Origin: a virus
IMG/VR virus record: IMGVR_UViG_3300036770_003454
Location: 62,001 to 126,000 of that record
Length of the DNA stretch: 64,000 nt
Direction: 5' to 3' (one strand)
Shown here piece by piece: positions 12,110 through 62,775 of this stretch. Numbering within the stretch: position 1 is the stretch's first letter; each line of letters starts with the position of its first letter. The notes under the pieces were generated by a model. The model was not told the origin of the DNA. It saw nothing but the letters and a program-made list of their open reading frames with translations, and searched no databases. A program made the position numbers and the translations under genes.

Positions 12110-12138
12110 TATATATCAACCCTTCTAATTCTTGTCAA
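12110..12138 (-). promoter_or_regulatory. Sigma70-type promoter for the tRNA-Glu/Gly pair
   Basis: TTGACA, 17 bases, TATATA, with the -10 about 10 bases upstream of tRNA-Glu. The -35 overlaps the last codons of the BI-1 family gene. Confidence 0.75.
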
Positions 12139-12830
12139 TCACTATTTTTCTCACCAAGCAATTGTAACAAACTAATAAAGATATTAATAAAGTTAATATA
12201 CAAACTCAGAGCACCAACAACACCTAACTTCTCTCTTTCCTCACCATATGTTGTATAATATGTATCCTTCAATTGCTGAGTATCAAATGCTACAAGCAAA
12301 GTAAATACAATAACAGAAATGCAACTAATTGCAAATGCTAGTGCTGAACTTTGTAGAAATAGATTTACAATACCTGCAAGAATGATACCAATAACACCCA
12401 TCATAAGAAATGACCCCAATGATGTCAAATCCTTTTTGGTTGTATAACCATATACTGACATTGTAAGAAAAGTTGCTGATGTAATAAAGAATACCTGAAA
12501 GATACTACCAAGTTGATAAATCATAAAGATAGATGATAAACTAACCCCCATAGCAGCAGCAAAAACATAAAAGAAAACTCGTGCTGCTGCCGCAGAGATT
12601 CTTTCAATGAGAAACATAAATCCTAGTGATAGAACAAGAGGTGCAAAGATTACTGCATATGCTAATGGTGGAGTCTTCCAAATTGTTGCCATAAGAGCAG
12701 GATTTGTAGACATCCAGTATGCAATACCACCACTGAAAATAAGACCCATTGTCATATTGTTGTAAATACTAACAAAGTAATTGCGTAGTCCGACATCTTG
12801 AACACCAGTATTGATTGGTACACTAACCAT
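12135..12830 (-). CDS. Bax inhibitor-1 (BI-1/YccA) family membrane protein
   Basis: The start MVSVPINTGVQDVGL at 12830 is behind AAGGAGATAAAA. The 231-aa protein has seven hydrophobic segments and the family signatures YNNMTMGLIFSGG near the first helix and FDTQQLKDTYY near the last. C-terminal GALSLYINFINIFISLLQLL is typical of BI-1/YbhL proteins. These are bacterial inner-membrane calcium-leak or stress-modulating proteins. A phage copy may alter host membrane physiology. Confidence 0.88.
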   Translation of the reverse strand: MVSVPINTGVQDVGLRNYFVSIYNNMTMGLIFSGGIAYWMSTNPALMATIWKTPPLAYAVIFAPLVLSLGFMFLIERISAAAARVFFYVFAAAMGVSLSSIFMIYQLGSIFQVFFITSATFLTMSVYGYTTKKDLTSLGSFLMMGVIGIILAGIVNLFLQSSALAFAISCISVIVFTLLVAFDTQQLKDTYYTTYGEEREKLGVVGALSLYINFINIFISLLQLLGEKNSD

Positions 12831-12840
12831 TTTTATCTCC

Positions 12841-13068
12841 TTAAATTTTGAGAATTCTTGCCAATCCTTGTAAGTCTGCATTTTTTGAATCAAAACTATG
12901 ATGATTCATCATTTGTATATGATACCACTTTTTGATTTCTTCAAGTACATTTTGTAAATTTTGAATCTCTTCAACCGCTTGTTCTTCCAGAAGTTTATAA
13001 TCTGGAAGTTTATACATCAAATATCGTTCTCTTTCTGCCTTAGTTTTAAGTTTATTTACTACAGACAT
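12841..13068 (-). CDS. Small coiled-coil hypothetical protein
   Basis: A 75-aa helical protein (MSVVNKLKTKAERERYLMYK; EEQAVEEIQNLQNVLEEIKK) with an AAAGGAGGA ribosome site. A His-rich stretch (NHHS) follows. It is upstream of the BI-1 gene in the same transcript. Function unknown. Confidence 0.6.
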   Translation of the reverse strand: MSVVNKLKTKAERERYLMYKLPDYKLLEEQAVEEIQNLQNVLEEIKKWYHIQMMNHHSFDSKNADLQGLARILKI

Positions 13069-15085: not shown

Positions 15086-16123
15086 TTATTTCACATCTTT
15101 TGTGGTTAAGGAAATCATATTCTTAACATTATTCACAACTTTATCAAGTTCCTTCTTTGGAAGTGCTACTAGACCCTTTCGTGCAAGATAACCATCTTGA
15201 GAAATTGCACGATTAGATACATATTCTTCTGCGAATTCCTTTAGTCCAGGAATTACACCAATATGTTGCTTCTTGATGTAAACAAATAGTGGTCTAGCAC
15301 CCTTATATCTACCACTTGAAATATTGTCAAAATCAGGAACAACTCCGTCAATTGCTACACCACGAAGGGTTGAGATGTTCTCTTCAAGGAATGAATAACC
15401 AAAGATTCCAAAAGCATTACGATTTGCTTGTAACTTTTGAACTATTACGTTATCATTTTCACCTGCTTCTACATATGCACCATCTTGACGAATAGACTTC
15501 CATGCTGTTTCAAATGCCTTGCGATTAGACTTTTTTAGATCCTTGAGAACTATTTCTGCTCCTGGTTCCATGAATAGTTCATGAAATGAATCACGAGTAC
15601 CAGAAGTTGGAGGTGGACCAAGAACCTCAATTCTTACATTTGGTAGTTGCGGATCAATATCTGACCAGTTCTTATATGGATTTGGAATCAGATTACCAGA
15701 CTTATCAGGAACCTTTTCTGCTAGCGCAAGAAATACTTGTGCTAGTGATAGTTTGATATTTGGTCCATTCTTTGATTGTGTGATAGTAAGACCATCAAAA
15801 CCAACTTTGATTTCAACAATCTCTGTTACACCATTCTTCACACACATTTCGAATTCTGACTTCTTGATTGCACGAGAAGCATTTGAAACATCAGGATGTG
15901 ATGTTCCAACACCTGCACAAAAAAGTTTAAATCCACCACCTGTGCCTGTAGATTCTACAATTGGTGTCTTTGTACGTGTATTTCGTCCAAAGTTTTCAGC
16001 AACGGTTGTTGTAAATGGATATACAGTTGATGAACCAACAACACGAATTTGATCACGTGCTTCTGATTGTGGAATATATATCAAGATTAATGCCAACGGC
16101 AACAAAAATTTATACTTCATCAT
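15086..16123 (-). CDS. pstS: PstS-like periplasmic phosphate-binding protein
   Basis: The 345-aa protein has a signal peptide (about residues 1-22, ending SEAR) and the PstS phosphate-site motifs: VVGSSTVYPFTTTVAENF near the N-terminus, ESTGTGGGFKLFC, SNASRAIKKSE and PPTSGTRDSFHELF. Phage PstS copies are known from marine T4-like phages and are thought to raise phosphate uptake during infection. It shares this window with a lipid phosphate-scavenging pair (17608-19322). It overlaps the 75-aa upstream gene by 4 bases. Confidence 0.92.
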   Translation of the reverse strand: MMKYKFLLPLALILIYIPQSEARDQIRVVGSSTVYPFTTTVAENFGRNTRTKTPIVESTGTGGGFKLFCAGVGTSHPDVSNASRAIKKSEFEMCVKNGVTEIVEIKVGFDGLTITQSKNGPNIKLSLAQVFLALAEKVPDKSGNLIPNPYKNWSDIDPQLPNVRIEVLGPPPTSGTRDSFHELFMEPGAEIVLKDLKKSNRKAFETAWKSIRQDGAYVEAGENDNVIVQKLQANRNAFGIFGYSFLEENISTLRGVAIDGVVPDFDNISSGRYKGARPLFVYIKKQHIGVIPGLKEFAEEYVSNRAISQDGYLARKGLVALPKKELDKVVNNVKNMISLTTKDVK

Positions 16124-17607: not shown

Positions 17608-18591
17608 TTAAATATTGACCAATGAAGATATAAAATCTTTTGTTACTTCTGTCCAATCATAATTTTTTGCTAATGCAACACAATCGTCTGATTTTAATTC
17701 CAAACAATCTATACATGCTTGATATAAATCATCAGAAAGAACACCGGTTTTACTTGTAATAATGTCTTTAGGACCAGTAACAGGATAAGCAGCAACAGGC
17801 AAACCACATGCCAATGCTTCTAATATAACTAAACCAAAAGTATCTGATTTGGATGGAAAACAAAATACATCAGACATTTGATAATATTCAATTAATTCTA
17901 AATTTTGTTTTATGCCCACGAAATTAACATTTTGATATTTTTTCTTATAATTATTTAATTCTGGACCATCACCAACGACTATTTTTTTTCCTGGTAAATC
18001 TAAATCAAGAAATGCTTCCAAATTCTTTTCTTTAGAAACTCTACCAACATACAGAAAAGTTGGTAGAGTTTTTTTTGACTTATAAGATGGTTTAAATTTA
18101 TCTGTGTCTACCCCACGAGACCAATCAATAATATTTTTATATCCTTGTGCAATTAATTCTTTTTTTAACGACGATGTAGCACAAAACATGCCTGCACCTG
18201 AACCATGAAACTGTTTGAAATACCACCGTGTTATCCATGTTGGTATATTTAATTGTTTTTGAAGCAACTCTGGAAACTTAGTATGATAACTGGTAGTAAA
18301 TTTCTTATTGTTTTTTAAACACCATTTTCTCACATAGAATCCAATAGGACCTTCTGTAGAAATGTGTATGTAATCAGGGTTTATGTTTTTAATCAGATCA
18401 TTTATTTTTTTATTTGATGGGACAGATAATCTAATTTCTGAATAAAAAGGATTTGGTAATGTTGTGAAATCATTAGGTGTAATAAAAACCAATCTATGAT
18501 TGATTGCATTTTTCTGTATCTGTTTTAGTGTGGTTACCACACCATTTACTTGAGGTTCCCAAGCATCTGTTGCTATTAAGATTGTTTCCAT
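17608..18591 (-). CDS. GT4 glycosyltransferase, Agt-like (diacylglycerol glycosylation)
   Basis: The 327-aa two-domain GT-B fold has N-terminal TDAWEPQVNGVVTTLK (acceptor side), HISTEGPIGFYVRKWC and SYHTKFPELL. The C-terminal sugar-nucleotide domain has FLYVGRVSKEKNLEAFLDLD and DTFGLVILEALACGLPVAAY. This matches the GDP-mannose/UDP-sugar lipid glycosyltransferases, including alphaproteobacterial Agt, which adds a sugar to diacylglycerol under phosphate starvation. It overlaps the PlcP-like gene by 16 bases, the same gene pair known in cells. The exact sugar cannot be told. Confidence 0.82.
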   Translation of the reverse strand: METILIATDAWEPQVNGVVTTLKQIQKNAINHRLVFITPNDFTTLPNPFYSEIRLSVPSNKKINDLIKNINPDYIHISTEGPIGFYVRKWCLKNNKKFTTSYHTKFPELLQKQLNIPTWITRWYFKQFHGSGAGMFCATSSLKKELIAQGYKNIIDWSRGVDTDKFKPSYKSKKTLPTFLYVGRVSKEKNLEAFLDLDLPGKKIVVGDGPELNNYKKKYQNVNFVGIKQNLELIEYYQMSDVFCFPSKSDTFGLVILEALACGLPVAAYPVTGPKDIITSKTGVLSDDLYQACIDCLELKSDDCVALAKNYDWTEVTKDFISSLVNI

Positions 18592-19322
18592 TTGATTAAC
18601 TCAAAATTTCCGTCTAGTGTTTCTACTATTGCTGAGCAACTTTCTACCCAATCTCCACAATTTAAATATTCAACACCATTTATCATGGTTATATTTGGAT
18701 GATGAATATGACCACATATCACACCATCAACACCTCTATATTTTGCGTAATTGCTCAAAGTTTCTTCATATGCACCTATAAAATTGACTGCTTTTTTAAC
18801 TTTATATTTAACCCAAGAACTAAGGGACCAAAATGGCAATCCAAAAATTTTTCTAATAAAATTTACAGCAATATTAAGATTGATTGACATTTCATATGCC
18901 CAAGAACCAAGTTTTGTTACCCATTTGGCATTTCTGATAATAGTATCAAATTGATCACCATGTATTATCAAATATTTTTTGCCTGAAGAAGTGATGTGTA
19001 TATCATCATCAACAAGTCTAATATTACCAAACCGAAAACTTTTATCACAAAAATGTCTTAAAAATTCATCATGATTTCCTGGTATATAAACAATTTCGGT
19101 GCCTTTTCTTGCTTGTCTTAACAATTTCTGAATAGTATCATTATGTTGTTGAGACCAATATTTGGTTCTAGACATAGACCAACCATCAATTATATCACCA
19201 ACCAGATATATTTTGTCACAATCAATGGTTTTTAAAAATTCTAAAAATTGTGTAGTCTGGCTTGCCTTTGTTCCTAGATGAATATCCGAAACAAATAAAG
19301 TCTTATATTTTGTTTTTAACAT
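18576..19322 (-). CDS. plcP: PlcP-like metallophosphoesterase (phospholipase C type)
   Basis: The roughly 248-aa protein has SDIHLGTKASQTTQFLEFL, LVGDIIDGW, YWSQQHNDTIQKLLRQARKG, YIPGNHDEFLR, IHGDQFD, AVNFIGAYEETL, GVDGVICGHIHHP and CGDWVESC. This series is characteristic of alphaproteobacterial PlcP (related to LpxH). PlcP removes phospholipid headgroups to give diacylglycerol when phosphate is scarce. A start at 19331 is also possible; 19322 has the better GGA spacing. The downstream glycosyltransferase would use its product. Confidence 0.82.
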   Translation of the reverse strand: MLKTKYKTLFVSDIHLGTKASQTTQFLEFLKTIDCDKIYLVGDIIDGWSMSRTKYWSQQHNDTIQKLLRQARKGTEIVYIPGNHDEFLRHFCDKSFRFGNIRLVDDDIHITSSGKKYLIIHGDQFDTIIRNAKWVTKLGSWAYEMSINLNIAVNFIRKIFGLPFWSLSSWVKYKVKKAVNFIGAYEETLSNYAKYRGVDGVICGHIHHPNITMINGVEYLNCGDWVESCSAIVETLDGNFELIKWKQS

Positions 19323-19324
19323 AA

Positions 19325-19570
19325 TTAGCATCCATCTTCATTTTCAAAATCTAAGAAATCATCATCTTCATCTTTTGGATATAACGCATAATATACTTGA
19401 TCGAAAACAGAATCTTCACCCAAACATTCTTGCAATGTATCACAATCTTCATCTTCAAAAATTGGAATCAACTTTTCATATAATGCTTTTTTTGTTTCAA
19501 CATCAACATCACAATCATTAAATGCTTCAATGATATCAGAAAACAAACTTGATCCAGATGCCCATCCCAT
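19325..19570 (-). CDS. Conserved acidic phage protein, 81 aa
   Basis: Starts MGWASGSSLFSDIIEAFNDC and contains DCDTLQECLGEDSVFDQVYY. The MGWA.GS…I…DCDTL.EC.GED pattern is widespread in phages and bacteria as a small conserved protein. The C-terminus is very acidic (DEDDDFLDFENEDGC). It precedes plcP with its stop overlapping a possible plcP start. Function unknown. Confidence 0.75.
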   Translation of the reverse strand: MGWASGSSLFSDIIEAFNDCDVDVETKKALYEKLIPIFEDEDCDTLQECLGEDSVFDQVYYALYPKDEDDDFLDFENEDGC

Positions 19571-19878: not shown

Positions 19879-20500
19879 CTGATTTTATTCCATATATATA
19901 ATTGTTATTTGTTTCAATTTGTCTTTTATTTTCAACACTATAGACAGTTTGATCTATGATATATCCTGGATTTTGAGTTATTCTATTTTCTACCCAAGCA
20001 TCATCAAACCAAATGATTCTATTATTTGGATAGCAATAAAAATTACCATTATCCATTTTGAAAAAATGTCCACATTTGTGTTCAGGACTCTCTGAAAAAT
20101 TAGTATCTAATGTAGATTTATTTTCCCAAGACCAATCCAAAGTAAACATATATGTACCAAATTCTTTTGTGTTTTGTGGGGTTATAAGTTCTGCTTTAAG
20201 TCCTGATAATCTTGATCTAATTTGAACATCTATATATGGAGAAAAACAATCCCAATACATTGCATTTTCCAATGCAACGACTGGTGCAGATTTTTTCCAA
20301 CAAAAAGCAATTATAGGTCTACGAGTCCAATTGACCCCATTTTCTAAAAATGCCTCAAATAATGGAACTCTCTTTTCTATAGATGCAACAGAATGAACAT
20401 CACACGGGGTAAATTCCCCGTGTCCTTTTTCGTGATTGAACAAATATTCATTTCTGATGAAACAAGTAAATGTCGGCAGGTTATGATTTAAATATGGCAT
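19868..20500 (-). CDS. Conserved hypothetical protein, 210 aa
   Basis: Aromatic-rich soluble protein starting MPYLNHNLPTFTCFIRNEYL. It contains EKGHGEFTPCDVHSVASI, YWDCFSPYIDVQIRSRL, YMFTLDWSW, NGNFYCYPNNRIIWFDDAW. This is a marine-phage protein pattern that I recall only as hypothetical. Its ATG overlaps the nrdJ stop by one base. No function proposed. Confidence 0.65.
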   Translation of the reverse strand: MPYLNHNLPTFTCFIRNEYLFNHEKGHGEFTPCDVHSVASIEKRVPLFEAFLENGVNWTRRPIIAFCWKKSAPVVALENAMYWDCFSPYIDVQIRSRLSGLKAELITPQNTKEFGTYMFTLDWSWENKSTLDTNFSESPEHKCGHFFKMDNGNFYCYPNNRIIWFDDAWVENRITQNPGYIIDQTVYSVENKRQIETNNNYIYGIKSDVK

Positions 20501-22392
20501 TAAATCTCACAACCACCAGCAACACATGCTAATGTCTGTACACCTTCAACATTGTCTTCCTTTTCAACCAATTGTGTCCAATCAATGTTAGTTGGCATCA
20601 TAGACAATAGTTCTTCATACTGTTCCTTTGAAACAGTTTCATATGGTGCTTGACGATATGTTCCTCCATCATGCGGTAAGAATGATACACCAGACATTTC
20701 ATCAAAGTGTTCCCATACCCATGCACCAACAGTTGGCCATTCTTCTTCCTTAACAGAAATTGTTACAGAAGGTTTATGTTCACACCAATGACGCTGATAC
20801 TTCAACCATAGTTCTAGGTGATCGATGGCAGAAACATCACTTCTCATTGTAGCATTATCTGGTGCTTTCTTTGGAAATGTGAAAACTGTTGTTGAATCTG
20901 GTTTAGTAACATCTGGTTCATGTGGAATTCCAGCATCAATCATATGCTTAGTCAACGGATCTTTATTATCAGAACGAACTCTTCTGAAATAATATGGATC
21001 GTGTCTTGGATGAATACCAGAAGCAGCATCAACCAATTGCGAAACAGTGCCAGAAGGTTTGACAGCAGTAATAGCAGCAGAAACAGGAACTCCTAATTCT
21101 TCTGCAAACTGTTGATTTGTATCAACTGCAATCTGTCTTAGCATTTCTAACCTGTGTGGTAGTTCTGGATCTTTATAATTATTTGTCAATGCAGAATCAT
21201 AAATTCCAGTTAGTGAAACACCAAGCAATCTTTCTTCTTCTGTATTCTTTTGCCAAATCTTTCTTAGATATGGAAAATATGTAAGAGTAGATTGGAACGT
21301 ACCAAGAATAGTTGCTAAACGTACTTTTCTTGCTAATGATTCTTCAGTGTCATCAACACGAACAATCACTTCAGTTAGATTGCAAAATTGATATGGACGA
21401 AGAATAATTTCTGAACATGGATTTGTTCCAAATTCTTGATTTGCATCTCTACGACCATTTTTCTTTGCTACTTTTTGTGAAGCTTCTCTAGAAAAGATAC
21501 CACGTTCTCCGCTTTTCGACTGATATAGTGATAACCATTCTTCAAGAAACATTCCGACTTCGGGTTTCTCTGTATAGACAGCAGAATTATTCGATAGTGC
21601 TCGTTGAACATTTGCTTCCCACCATGCTCCTGACTTTGCATTTCTCATTCTATCATCTGATAGATTTGATAGTGAAATCATTGCAGAACGACGAACTCCA
21701 CCTACAACAACCACTTCAGCAATCTTACACATGATATCATGACATTCAAGTGATGTTAGTTTTCGTCCTCTTGCATTTGTAAAGATACGAATAACAAACT
21801 TAAATAGTTCATTCATCGGTGCTGGACCAGATGATCTTCCACCAAATGTTTTGAGTGGTGCTCCTGCTGGACGAACCTTTGACAAATCCCACTTTGGAAT
21901 TTCTCCAGAATATAGAAGTGCTACAAGCATTCTCAATGCTTTTGCCCAACCTTCTTTTGAATCTTTAACAACAATTGTTGTATCAGAATCAAACATTTGT
22001 TCTGGGATTTCTGGCAATTTATTGATATATTGTCTTTCTACAGAAAATCCAACACCTGTACCATTCATCAGAATATGCATACATTCATCAAATGCTTTAG
22101 GATCATCTACAGGAAGGTATGAGCAATTGTATCCAGCAGTATTATCTCTTGCTAGTGCCTTTCCAGCAGTCATCATTGCTCGCATAGAAGGCATTACTTC
22201 CATGTTCAAAATTGCTTCATAAATTTCTATTTTGAGAGAATTTGATAATGTATAATTACATTGTGTCTTAATATGTTCTTGCATAAAGTCTACATATCGT
22301 GACACAGTTTCTTGCCAATGTTCTCTACGATTTTCATTAGAAAGATATCTTGCGTATCTGCTCTTGTGTATGTACTGCTGGTACAAATCCAT
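20500..22392 (-). CDS. nrdJ: Adenosylcobalamin-dependent (class II) ribonucleotide reductase
   Basis: The 630-aa protein has the class II catalytic pattern: redox Cys90 (AGYNCSYLP) paired with Cys337 (YQFCNLTE), and the thiyl-radical loop NPCSEI (residues 324-329). It also has GTGVGFSVER, VGGVRRSAMISLS and a C-terminal CVAGGCEI for re-reduction. It makes deoxynucleotides without oxygen or an R2 partner, provided the host has B12. Together with ThyX and dCMP deaminase it feeds phage DNA synthesis. No N-terminal ATP-cone and no intein are seen. Confidence 0.93.
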   Translation of the reverse strand: MDLYQQYIHKSRYARYLSNENRREHWQETVSRYVDFMQEHIKTQCNYTLSNSLKIEIYEAILNMEVMPSMRAMMTAGKALARDNTAGYNCSYLPVDDPKAFDECMHILMNGTGVGFSVERQYINKLPEIPEQMFDSDTTIVVKDSKEGWAKALRMLVALLYSGEIPKWDLSKVRPAGAPLKTFGGRSSGPAPMNELFKFVIRIFTNARGRKLTSLECHDIMCKIAEVVVVGGVRRSAMISLSNLSDDRMRNAKSGAWWEANVQRALSNNSAVYTEKPEVGMFLEEWLSLYQSKSGERGIFSREASQKVAKKNGRRDANQEFGTNPCSEIILRPYQFCNLTEVIVRVDDTEESLARKVRLATILGTFQSTLTYFPYLRKIWQKNTEEERLLGVSLTGIYDSALTNNYKDPELPHRLEMLRQIAVDTNQQFAEELGVPVSAAITAVKPSGTVSQLVDAASGIHPRHDPYYFRRVRSDNKDPLTKHMIDAGIPHEPDVTKPDSTTVFTFPKKAPDNATMRSDVSAIDHLELWLKYQRHWCEHKPSVTISVKEEEWPTVGAWVWEHFDEMSGVSFLPHDGGTYRQAPYETVSKEQYEELLSMMPTNIDWTQLVEKEDNVEGVQTLACVAGGCEI

Positions 22393-28826: not shown

Positions 28827-29264
28827 TTATCCCTTTTGTACTGCTTTTAACATCCAAGCATGTTTTTTATGTGCATCTATTCTATCTTGTAGAAAGTTTG
28901 CTAATCCGAGTTGCTTTGTTCTTTCTGCTTCTGTATAAGCAAGTTCTAAATCTATCAATAAAGATTCGTTATCTTTTGCCAATCTTTGACACATGATAAC
29001 AGCAGATGGAACTGATGTTTCGTCCATGATTGTTGACAATTCAGAGAATCTTTTCAATGAACCTGGAGCATATGAATCTAATGCACGAATTTGTTCCGCA
29101 ATTACATCAATCGAACCGTGAACTTCTTCATACAAATTACCAAAGAATTCGTGGTATTGAGGAAAATTTACTCCTTCAACATTCCAATGATAATTTTGTG
29201 CTTTAAGATAAAAAGCAAATGAAGAAGCAAGCACAACTTTCATTTTATTGATTAATTCTTCCAT
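28827..29264 (-). CDS. dps: Dps-like ferritin-fold protein
   Basis: The 145-aa four-helix protein has the Dps ferroxidase signature. AQNYHWNVEGVNFPQYHEFF at about residues 22-41 is followed by YEEVHGSIDVIAEQIRALDS, giving the conserved H, H/D and D/E ligands. The late helices (LEQ-like FLQDRIDAHKKHAWMLKAVQ) are also typical. Dps binds iron and protects DNA. Encoded within the virion gene cluster, it might be packaged with DNA or protect it late in infection. Confidence 0.85.
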   Translation of the reverse strand: MEELINKMKVVLASSFAFYLKAQNYHWNVEGVNFPQYHEFFGNLYEEVHGSIDVIAEQIRALDSYAPGSLKRFSELSTIMDETSVPSAVIMCQRLAKDNESLLIDLELAYTEAERTKQLGLANFLQDRIDAHKKHAWMLKAVQKG

Positions 29265-61185: not shown

Positions 61186-62715
61186 TTATAAAATTGACTT
61201 TTTTACAAATACCAATGTTCCACAATCATATATTCTTTTGTATCCGTTGTCTTCCATATATTGTTTCTCTGTAATATCATTACATATATTTAATTTTTTC
61301 TTTGTATAATTTGACCTATGCATTCTTTTTTCGTTTTTTGATAAATCAACATAAGCATATGATGGTGGATTGCGTTTAATTAATACAAACCCATTTTTCA
61401 AATATACATTTCCTTGTGACCTTGAATAATCAGCATAGGATATAATATCTCCTTGATATTGTTTTTGAAAATTCTTTAGTAGTTTAGAAAATCCTCCTAC
61501 ACAAGAAATTCCTTGACCAACACAATATCTTGACAGTTCCCACGGATAGTTTTTGTTATACCTGGATTTACAAAAAGTCATAATGCTTATGATTTTATCA
61601 TCGTCATATAAGGCAAACCAAATGCTTGATTTATCATCACCTTGCAAATGATTTTTATTTAAAAACTGTTTTTTGTCTGTTTGTGATGGTATTCTTATTG
61701 TCAATTTCCTCGCATACAATCTTTGGTATGGTTGTTCCAAAAGATTTACCAGAATAGACTTCCATATATCTTGTTTATAGATCCAATCATCACTAAAGAT
61801 ATGAATCAACCTAACACCTACTTTCTCGCACTCAAGTGTTTTTGATATATGATACTTTCTGTCTTTTCTTAATGCAGGGTTGGAGTGTTCTGGTCTAAAT
61901 GCGTGATAAAACACTCCATTATATTCAATCGCAAGTTTTTTAGATGGAATATATAAATCTACTTCCTTGCCATTCAATAATGTTCTGTCGTTGATTAAAA
62001 CTTGGTCTTGTCCAATAATAGAACAAACATAATCAATAACTTGCTGATGTTGTCCAGATATTTTATTAAATTTTCTTGGATAACTGTTTGGTTGATTGGT
62101 CTCAATTTCGTGATAGTTCAACCACCTACTTACTGTTGCTTTAGAACTACCAACCATTTCTGCTATTTCTTCAACCTTCTTTCTTTGATTACAATGTAAA
62201 TCAAACAACCATTGTTTATCTTGTAGTTTCAACAATATAAGGGGTTGAGAACAATTGTGTTGAACCATAGGTATGTTATGTTGAATACATGCTTTTTTTA
62301 TTGGATTAATAGAACAGTTAATCAATTCTGCGATTTCTTCATAAGACTTTTTCAAATCAATTCTTTGATAATATAACCAATCTTTATCATTTAGTTTTTG
62401 ATAAGTATCTTGATTCAATCTGTGTCTATGAGATCTACTACAATCTGGACCACAATAATTGCTAAATTTATTTTGATATGATTTGTTATATGTTACAGGC
62501 AACCCACAGACTATACAGTTAGGGAAAGTTTGCTCCGTATAACCAAGATGTATTGCTAAACAACGAATCTTTAGTGGAGAATCAATCGGCATCCATTGTG
62601 TATAATTTATTATTGTTTCACGAAGTTGTTTGTTTACTGATAAAGAAATCATATATTTCTTATCAAAGATTCTTTCGTCACATATTTGTTTGAGATCAAT
62701 CATTATAGTTTCCAT
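61186..62715 (-). CDS. Vsr-like (EDxHD-type) homing endonuclease
   Basis: The start at 62715 (METIMIDLKQ) or 62703; earlier codons are inside the gp23 terminator. The 509-aa protein has two CxxC-containing recognition segments (FPNCIVCGLPVTYN, NYCGPDCSRSHRH) and two helix-turn-helix-like repeats (EEIAELINCSINPIKKACIQ; EEIAEMVGSSKATVSRWLNY). A Vsr-like catalytic core follows (NGKEVDLYIPSKKLAIEYNG, VRLIHIFSDDW), then a GNAT-like tail (SRSQGNVYLKNGFVLIKRNP). It is free-standing after gp23. Confidence 0.82.
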   Translation of the reverse strand: METIMIDLKQICDERIFDKKYMISLSVNKQLRETIINYTQWMPIDSPLKIRCLAIHLGYTEQTFPNCIVCGLPVTYNKSYQNKFSNYCGPDCSRSHRHRLNQDTYQKLNDKDWLYYQRIDLKKSYEEIAELINCSINPIKKACIQHNIPMVQHNCSQPLILLKLQDKQWLFDLHCNQRKKVEEIAEMVGSSKATVSRWLNYHEIETNQPNSYPRKFNKISGQHQQVIDYVCSIIGQDQVLINDRTLLNGKEVDLYIPSKKLAIEYNGVFYHAFRPEHSNPALRKDRKYHISKTLECEKVGVRLIHIFSDDWIYKQDIWKSILVNLLEQPYQRLYARKLTIRIPSQTDKKQFLNKNHLQGDDKSSIWFALYDDDKIISIMTFCKSRYNKNYPWELSRYCVGQGISCVGGFSKLLKNFQKQYQGDIISYADYSRSQGNVYLKNGFVLIKRNPPSYAYVDLSKNEKRMHRSNYTKKKLNICNDITEKQYMEDNGYKRIYDCGTLVFVKKSIL

Positions 62716-62746
62716 TCTATGGTTTGGTATCTGTTGTAATATAGAT

Positions 62747-62775
62747 AAAAAAGAAGGGGGAATCAACCCCCTTCT
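62747..62775 (-). terminator. Rho-independent terminator of gene 23
   Basis: AGAAGGGGG-TTGATT-CCCCCTTCT then TTTTTTA on the minus strand, strong stem at the end of the capsid gene. Confidence 0.9.

Follow-up and report, generated by a model that had tools for sequence, protein, structure and literature searches.

What does a T4-like phage gain from a metallophosphoesterase gene that runs into a glycosyltransferase gene, and are the two products the enzymes PlcP and Agt of bacterial membrane-lipid remodelling? We analysed a window of 64,000 bases (62001–126000 of a 149,078-base viral record; coordinates below are those of the window). The T4-type major head protein gp23 (phrog_138, 5e-156) and the DNA polymerase gp43 (phrog_262) are encoded on the same record as the gene pair, and the phage origin of the window is therefore sound. 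The nearest relatives of its gp23 belong to Stenotrophomonas DLP6, Sinorhizobium phiM12-type and Methylophilales Melnitz phages. The window contains nine tRNAs, and nearly all of its genes lie on the minus strand. A large homing endonuclease (phrog_3339; 61186–62766, minus strand) adjoins the major head gene, and the phage also encodes a ferritin-like protein (28827–29264, minus strand).

The phosphoesterase (251 aa; 18576–19331, minus strand) and the transferase (327 aa; 17608–18591, minus strand) overlap by 16 nt (18576–18591). The sequence-only reading had described both ORFs and this overlap correctly; the end it gave for the first gene, 19322, is a second in-frame ATG, and the full ORF extends to 19331. 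An identical overlap is found at the related phage locus L002, and translational coupling of the two genes is likely. An 81-aa ORF (19325–19570, minus strand), also kept in L002, shares 7 nt with the beginning of plcP, which leaves plcP without a promoter region of its own. The pair sits within a nucleotide-metabolism run (RNR, ThyX and a MazG-like PRA-PH protein), and the ribonucleotide reductase gene (20500–22392, minus strand; PF02867/PF21995/PF17975) lies upstream of plcP in the same co-oriented run. Comparison with L002, the nearest relative, gave dN/dS values of ∼ 0.065/1.17 for PlcP and ∼ 0.19/1.34 for the transferase (dS is near saturation), which argues against a chance pair of ORFs.

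Identity of the two enzymes

The phosphoesterase matches Metallophos (PF00149, 2.7e-14) and has a complete calcineurin-type metal site: D16-x-H18, D46, GN86-H87-D-E, H124 and GH208-I-H210. The seven metal ligands (D16, H18, D46, N86, H124, H208 and H210) are common to PlcP and LpxH, the UDP-2,3-diacylglucosamine diphosphatase, which shares both the metal site and the calcineurin-like fold; the AF2 model of the window protein (pLDDT 82) has an LpxH-like fold. What distinguishes the families in our alignment is the position of LpxH Arg80, which is Arg in 12/12 LpxHs but His in 106/106 PlcPs. The window protein has His87 here, so that the full PlcP motif series noticed from the sequence is indeed present. 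Placement within LpxH had been named beforehand as the outcome that would refute a PlcP assignment; the protein fell outside LpxH and inside PlcP. LpxH stands apart at a support of 100 in a first PlcP tree that had long-branch problems, and phage and cellular PlcPs group together.

Sequence searches agree with this placement. The protein misses the curated NCBIfam LpxH cut-offs (66.8 vs. 134 bits and 58.1 vs. 190 bits). Among cellular proteins it is closest to the PlcPs of rhizobia and SAR11 (51–57% identity), whereas identity to LpxH is ∼ 25%. In 200 Pseudomonadota genomes its matches were bimodal, with one set at 37–56% identity and E < 1e-52 and the other at ≤ 33% and E > 1e-12; several genomes hold one match of each set, a PlcP-like and an LpxH-like protein. 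The overlap also links the window gene to agt, a gene for non-phosphorus lipid, a pattern that is widespread. Given the scores far under the cut-offs, the separate clade, the bimodal genome matches and the change of Arg80 to His, we reject an LpxH identity. Judged by its sequence, the phosphoesterase is of the PlcP type.

The transferase matches Glycos_transf_1 (PF00534, 3.9e-23) and Glyco_transf_4 (PF13439), and its model has a GT-B fold (pLDDT 92). As the sequence-only reading had proposed, it falls inside the Agt clade (support 100/99) and not in an unrelated capsular clade; other GT4 paralogues lie outside. In four genomes (SAR11/Agrobacterium) one or two proteins score E < 1e-86 against it and every other GT4 E ≥ 1e-11, and in the SAR11 genomes the E < 1e-86 match is the gene adjoining plcP. 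SAR11 Agt requires His104 and Asp256, with a > 90% loss on changing Asp256 to Glu; mutagenesis has further identified G16, G82, G85, R190, K195, T257, F258, G259 and E264 as donor residues, and Arg163 and Trp320 contact the lipid diacylglycerol (PMC8231724). All have equivalents in the window protein: catalytic H103 and D250, donor residues G17, G81, G84, R184, K189, T251, F252, G253 and E258, and the diacylglycerol contacts R159 and W313. The Asp256 position is Glu in 9/10 other GT4s. The Agt motifs GRVAxEKN and FPSxTDTFG read GRVSKEKN and FPSKSDTFG, one conservative change each. The gap in E-values and the position inside the Agt clade led us to reject an unrelated GT4 of LPS or capsule synthesis, and we assign the protein as an Agt-type GT4 diacylglycerol glycosyltransferase.

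The pair in cells and in phages

Bacteria short of phosphate employ these two enzymes to exchange the phospholipids of their membranes for glycolipids. In cellular genomes plcP is followed by agt at 30/30 fetched SAR11 loci, and the pair also occurs in Rhizobiales and many other Proteobacteria. PlcP is present in 123/247 SAR11 genomes, one single-cell genome having the order plcP-agt-phoR-x-pstS and another carrying olsB/olsA-like genes beside plcP-agt. The PlcPs of MED193 and HTCC7211, and the Agt of HTCC7211, are experimentally proven (PMC4796936). The window shares enzymes, gene order and catalytic residues with the bacterial remodelling systems (PB7211_983/PB7211_960 of SAR11 HTCC7211 and agt of Agrobacterium; PMC4796936; PMC8231724), at 53–57% identity for PlcP and 42–50% for Agt. 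Unlike these, the window genes belong to a lytic-type T4-like phage, overlap inside a phage operon, have no Pho box and represent deep phage-specific lineages.

The sequence-only reading had asked whether other phages carry the pair, and many do. A PlcP search of viral contigs gave 80 loci, with Agt adjoining in 17/80 and a non-homologous GT2 in 33/80. The corresponding transferase search gave at least 145 Agt loci; among the matches listed, PlcP is found at 131/145, always on the same strand and directly upstream in ∼ 125. After dereplication at 90%, again among the matches listed, Agt lies directly downstream in 70/111 PlcP clusters and GT2 in 16/111. A Fisher test of glycosyltransferase adjacency was discounted because its HMMs had been built on those very neighbours. 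Among dereplicated loci detected through PlcP alone, roughly half have no recognized glycosyltransferase alongside, which means that PlcP can work with no partner encoded by the phage. gp23 is on the same record as plcP-agt or plcP in the window, L014, L026, L028 and L033, and terminase is present in 13/50 Agt records checked, L036 among them; one or other marker is carried by the five gp23 records, by L036 and by twelve others, and many of the remaining IMG/VR contigs are fragments. A Bax1-I/TMBIM-family membrane protein, encoded in the window at 12135–12893 (minus strand), is also found at phage loci L002, L003, L027, L028 and L049.

At loci L050–L079, L003, L023, L025, L044 and L049 a GT2 with a GT-A fold takes the place of the GT4 beside PlcP, often with overlapping genes. 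Whereas the PlcPs of L027, L029, L030, L031 and L036 group together at 100/100, a matching group of their transferases is rejected (AU p = 9e-5), and with it, for these loci, movement of PlcP and Agt as an unbroken unit. Taken with the GT2 pairings, the mismatch suggests that PlcP has repeatedly been joined to a new glycosyltransferase, as would be expected if a joint pathway were under selection. Phage PlcP and Agt both branch outside the sampled SAR11 and Rhizobiales in trees whose root and deep phage branch order are not fixed, and recent capture from either group is unsupported since the phage sequences lie outside both.

Phosphate context

A pstS-like gene does lie where the sequence-only reading placed pstS (15086–16123, minus strand): its 345-aa product, a PstS-like periplasmic phosphate-binding protein, matches PF12849 (1.2e-40, 140 bits), and its best NCBIfam model is TIGR02136 at 145 bits, under the curated cut-off of ∼ 207. 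It shares 50% identity with the PstS encoded near plcP-agt-phoR in SAR11. The gene lies downstream of plcP-agt; in between are three tRNA genes, a 128-aa ORF and further small ORFs. The starts of both pstS and plcP overlap the preceding ORFs.

Elsewhere pstS accompanies a minority of phage plcP genes, being near plcP-agt on the same strand at 17/150 loci, and many PlcP phages are without it. The fullest cassette, L036 (4152–7738), has contiguous olsB-pstS-plcP-agt with OlsB and PstS over their curated cut-offs and a terminase on the record; its OlsB points to ornithine-lipid synthesis, and a Pho box lies 62 nt before olsB. In L334 (845–5014) the order is pstS-porin-plcP-agt, adjoining a family B DNA polymerase, and in L393 an ORF for a secreted product, porin-like but with no match in Pfam, precedes pstS-plcP-agt. 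L431 (528–3381), like L334, has a porin or porin-like gene next to pstS and plcP, hinting at an outer-membrane phosphate-entry step. L033, which has gp23 on its record, carries galE immediately ahead of plcP-agt and, close by, a gene for a nucleotide-sugar dehydrogenase; both enzymes could supply donors for Agt.

A Pho-box pattern gave 25 distinct matches, 13 of them no more than 100 nt ahead of a plcP, pstS or olsB start (173-fold enriched), and shuffles predict none in the pstS group. The pattern was set after sight of a few phage sites and the positional enrichment is the safer figure. Canonical direct repeats, e.g. TTGTCACAGGATTGTCAC, precede pstS or plcP in L392, L418, L422, L425, L397, L406 and L371. 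The Pho-box-like sites sought upstream in the window itself were not found at plcP or pstS with this strict pattern, in contrast to the 13 regions of its relatives. The pattern matches only 1/161 cellular plcP regions and is thus insensitive for alphaproteobacterial boxes, which makes the absence weak evidence; a Pho box, moreover, belongs to the regulation of plcP in hosts and does not define the enzyme. Without a Pho box, expression of plcP-agt in the window is probably driven by the phage and not by PhoB. The earlier proposal of a coordinated programme of phosphate import and lipid exchange is supported by recurrent pstS-plcP-agt cassettes and the Pho boxes of relatives, within the limit that in the window itself pstS is separated from the pair and no Pho box was found.

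Proposed pathway and its alternatives

We consider it likely that the two genes of the window form a pathway that remodels membrane lipids in two steps and feeds phosphate to the phage programme. Phospholipids are among the large phosphorus pools of small plankton cells. PlcP would cut the phosphorylated head-group from host phospholipids to leave diacylglycerol. Agt would then use a UDP-sugar to attach Glc, Gal or GlcA to the diacylglycerol, and the glycolipids so formed (MGDG/GADG) can make up a bilayer; the sugar cap would keep the bilayer and prevent a build-up of diacylglycerol. PlcP releases phospho-head-groups and no inorganic phosphate itself, so a further phosphatase is needed, and host enzymes of this kind may dephosphorylate the head-groups and thereby provide phosphate for phage DNA synthesis. 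Phage PstS would top up phosphate import, the phosphate feeding the RNR/ThyX/DNA-polymerase programme. Conserved residues and what is known of the families point to the activities, the substrates and a net phosphate gain, and the gene context suggests the physiological benefit. With somewhat less assurance, we favour a broader reading in which viral lipid remodelling is widespread: plcP with an exchangeable glycosyltransferase (GT4 Agt or GT2), in some phages with olsB, pstS, porin, galE or their own Pho boxes tied to the host PhoB regulon, would lie hidden under the name LpxH and be able to bring remodelling to hosts without it, as the phages Mosig and S-SRM01 described below illustrate.

The pair might instead act mainly on the envelope, by excluding other phages, protecting the infected cell or altering the timing or ease of lysis, with phosphate supply secondary. 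In Ruegeria, the adsorption of phages does change with lipid composition (PMC9938194); many phages have PlcP but no pstS, and in some PlcP lies near curli-like or adenylate-cyclase genes. However, the Pho boxes and the pstS, porin and olsB neighbours in relatives tie the cassette to phosphate starvation, and a chiefly envelope-directed role seems to us possible but rather doubtful. A recent passenger, captured from a host and without a role in infection, is very unlikely: similar pairs adjoin in host genomes, so a single transfer could have brought both genes, but the phage copies are lineages of their own outside the sampled SAR11 and Rhizobiales, they show strong purifying selection and repeated re-pairing, and the GC3 of plcP and agt fits the phage. 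We give least credence to an LpxH-like enzyme acting on lipid A precursors beside an LPS or capsule transferase. The closest NCBIfam and PDB sequence matches bear the name LpxH and phage relatives are annotated accordingly, but against this stand the bit scores, the separate clade, the Arg80 to His change, the genomes that hold both genes and the Agt placement of the transferase.

The remodelling pathway thus favoured differs from known phage phosphate genes. Cyanophage pstS and PhoB control of phage pstS have been described (PMC10976474), and such auxiliary metabolic genes (pstS/phoA) adjust the host phosphorus economy as we propose for the window, which itself has pstS; they serve phosphate uptake or act on phosphorus that is soluble or external, whereas plcP and agt target membrane lipids. 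Both genes are absent from the 17 kinds listed in a survey of phage phosphorus-acquisition genes (PMC10987575). We found no report of phage plcP or agt, nor a paper joining plcP with auxiliary metabolic genes, in mostly open-access journal literature, so priority is uncertain; we regard the enzymes as known and their widespread viral setting as new. A likely reason why the pair has escaped notice is that the first enzyme is mostly labelled LpxH: phage PlcP relatives carry this annotation in databases, and a table of auxiliary metabolic genes from Lake Baikal has an 'lpxH' entry (PMC9611531). If phages draw on the phospholipid phosphorus of plankton and put glycolipids in its place, viruses help to set the lipid composition of virocells and the cycling of phosphorus where phosphate is low, and some of the glycolipid markers attributed to starving bacteria may come from viruses. 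The assignment also corrects a systematic error of annotation, in which phage PlcP is called LpxH.

An isolated phage already carries the first enzyme. Pelagibacter phage Mosig EXVC030M (MT647606) encodes a PlcP 46% identical to that of the window, beside pstS. Unlike the window it has no Agt, its pstS is divergent (47% identity between the PstS proteins) and its PlcP is annotated as UDP-2,3-diacylglucosamine hydrolase. Its host HTCC1062 has no plcP (PMC4796936), so any diacylglycerol formed by head-group removal during infection would be the work of the phage enzyme.

Several further neighbours of phage PlcP were observed. Genes with adenylate/guanylate cyclase domains adjoin it at L004 (54–1133), L029 (134–1216), L007 (7052–9082) and L043 (6431–8461), some with a CHASE2-like sensor, and curlin-, CsgG- and FecR-like genes are near it in L006, L007 and L043. 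Cyanobacteria are, to our knowledge, largely without PlcP. A distant homologue (36%) is encoded by cyanophage S-SRM01 (L083, 6010–6714) and joins the tree basally, as a long branch.
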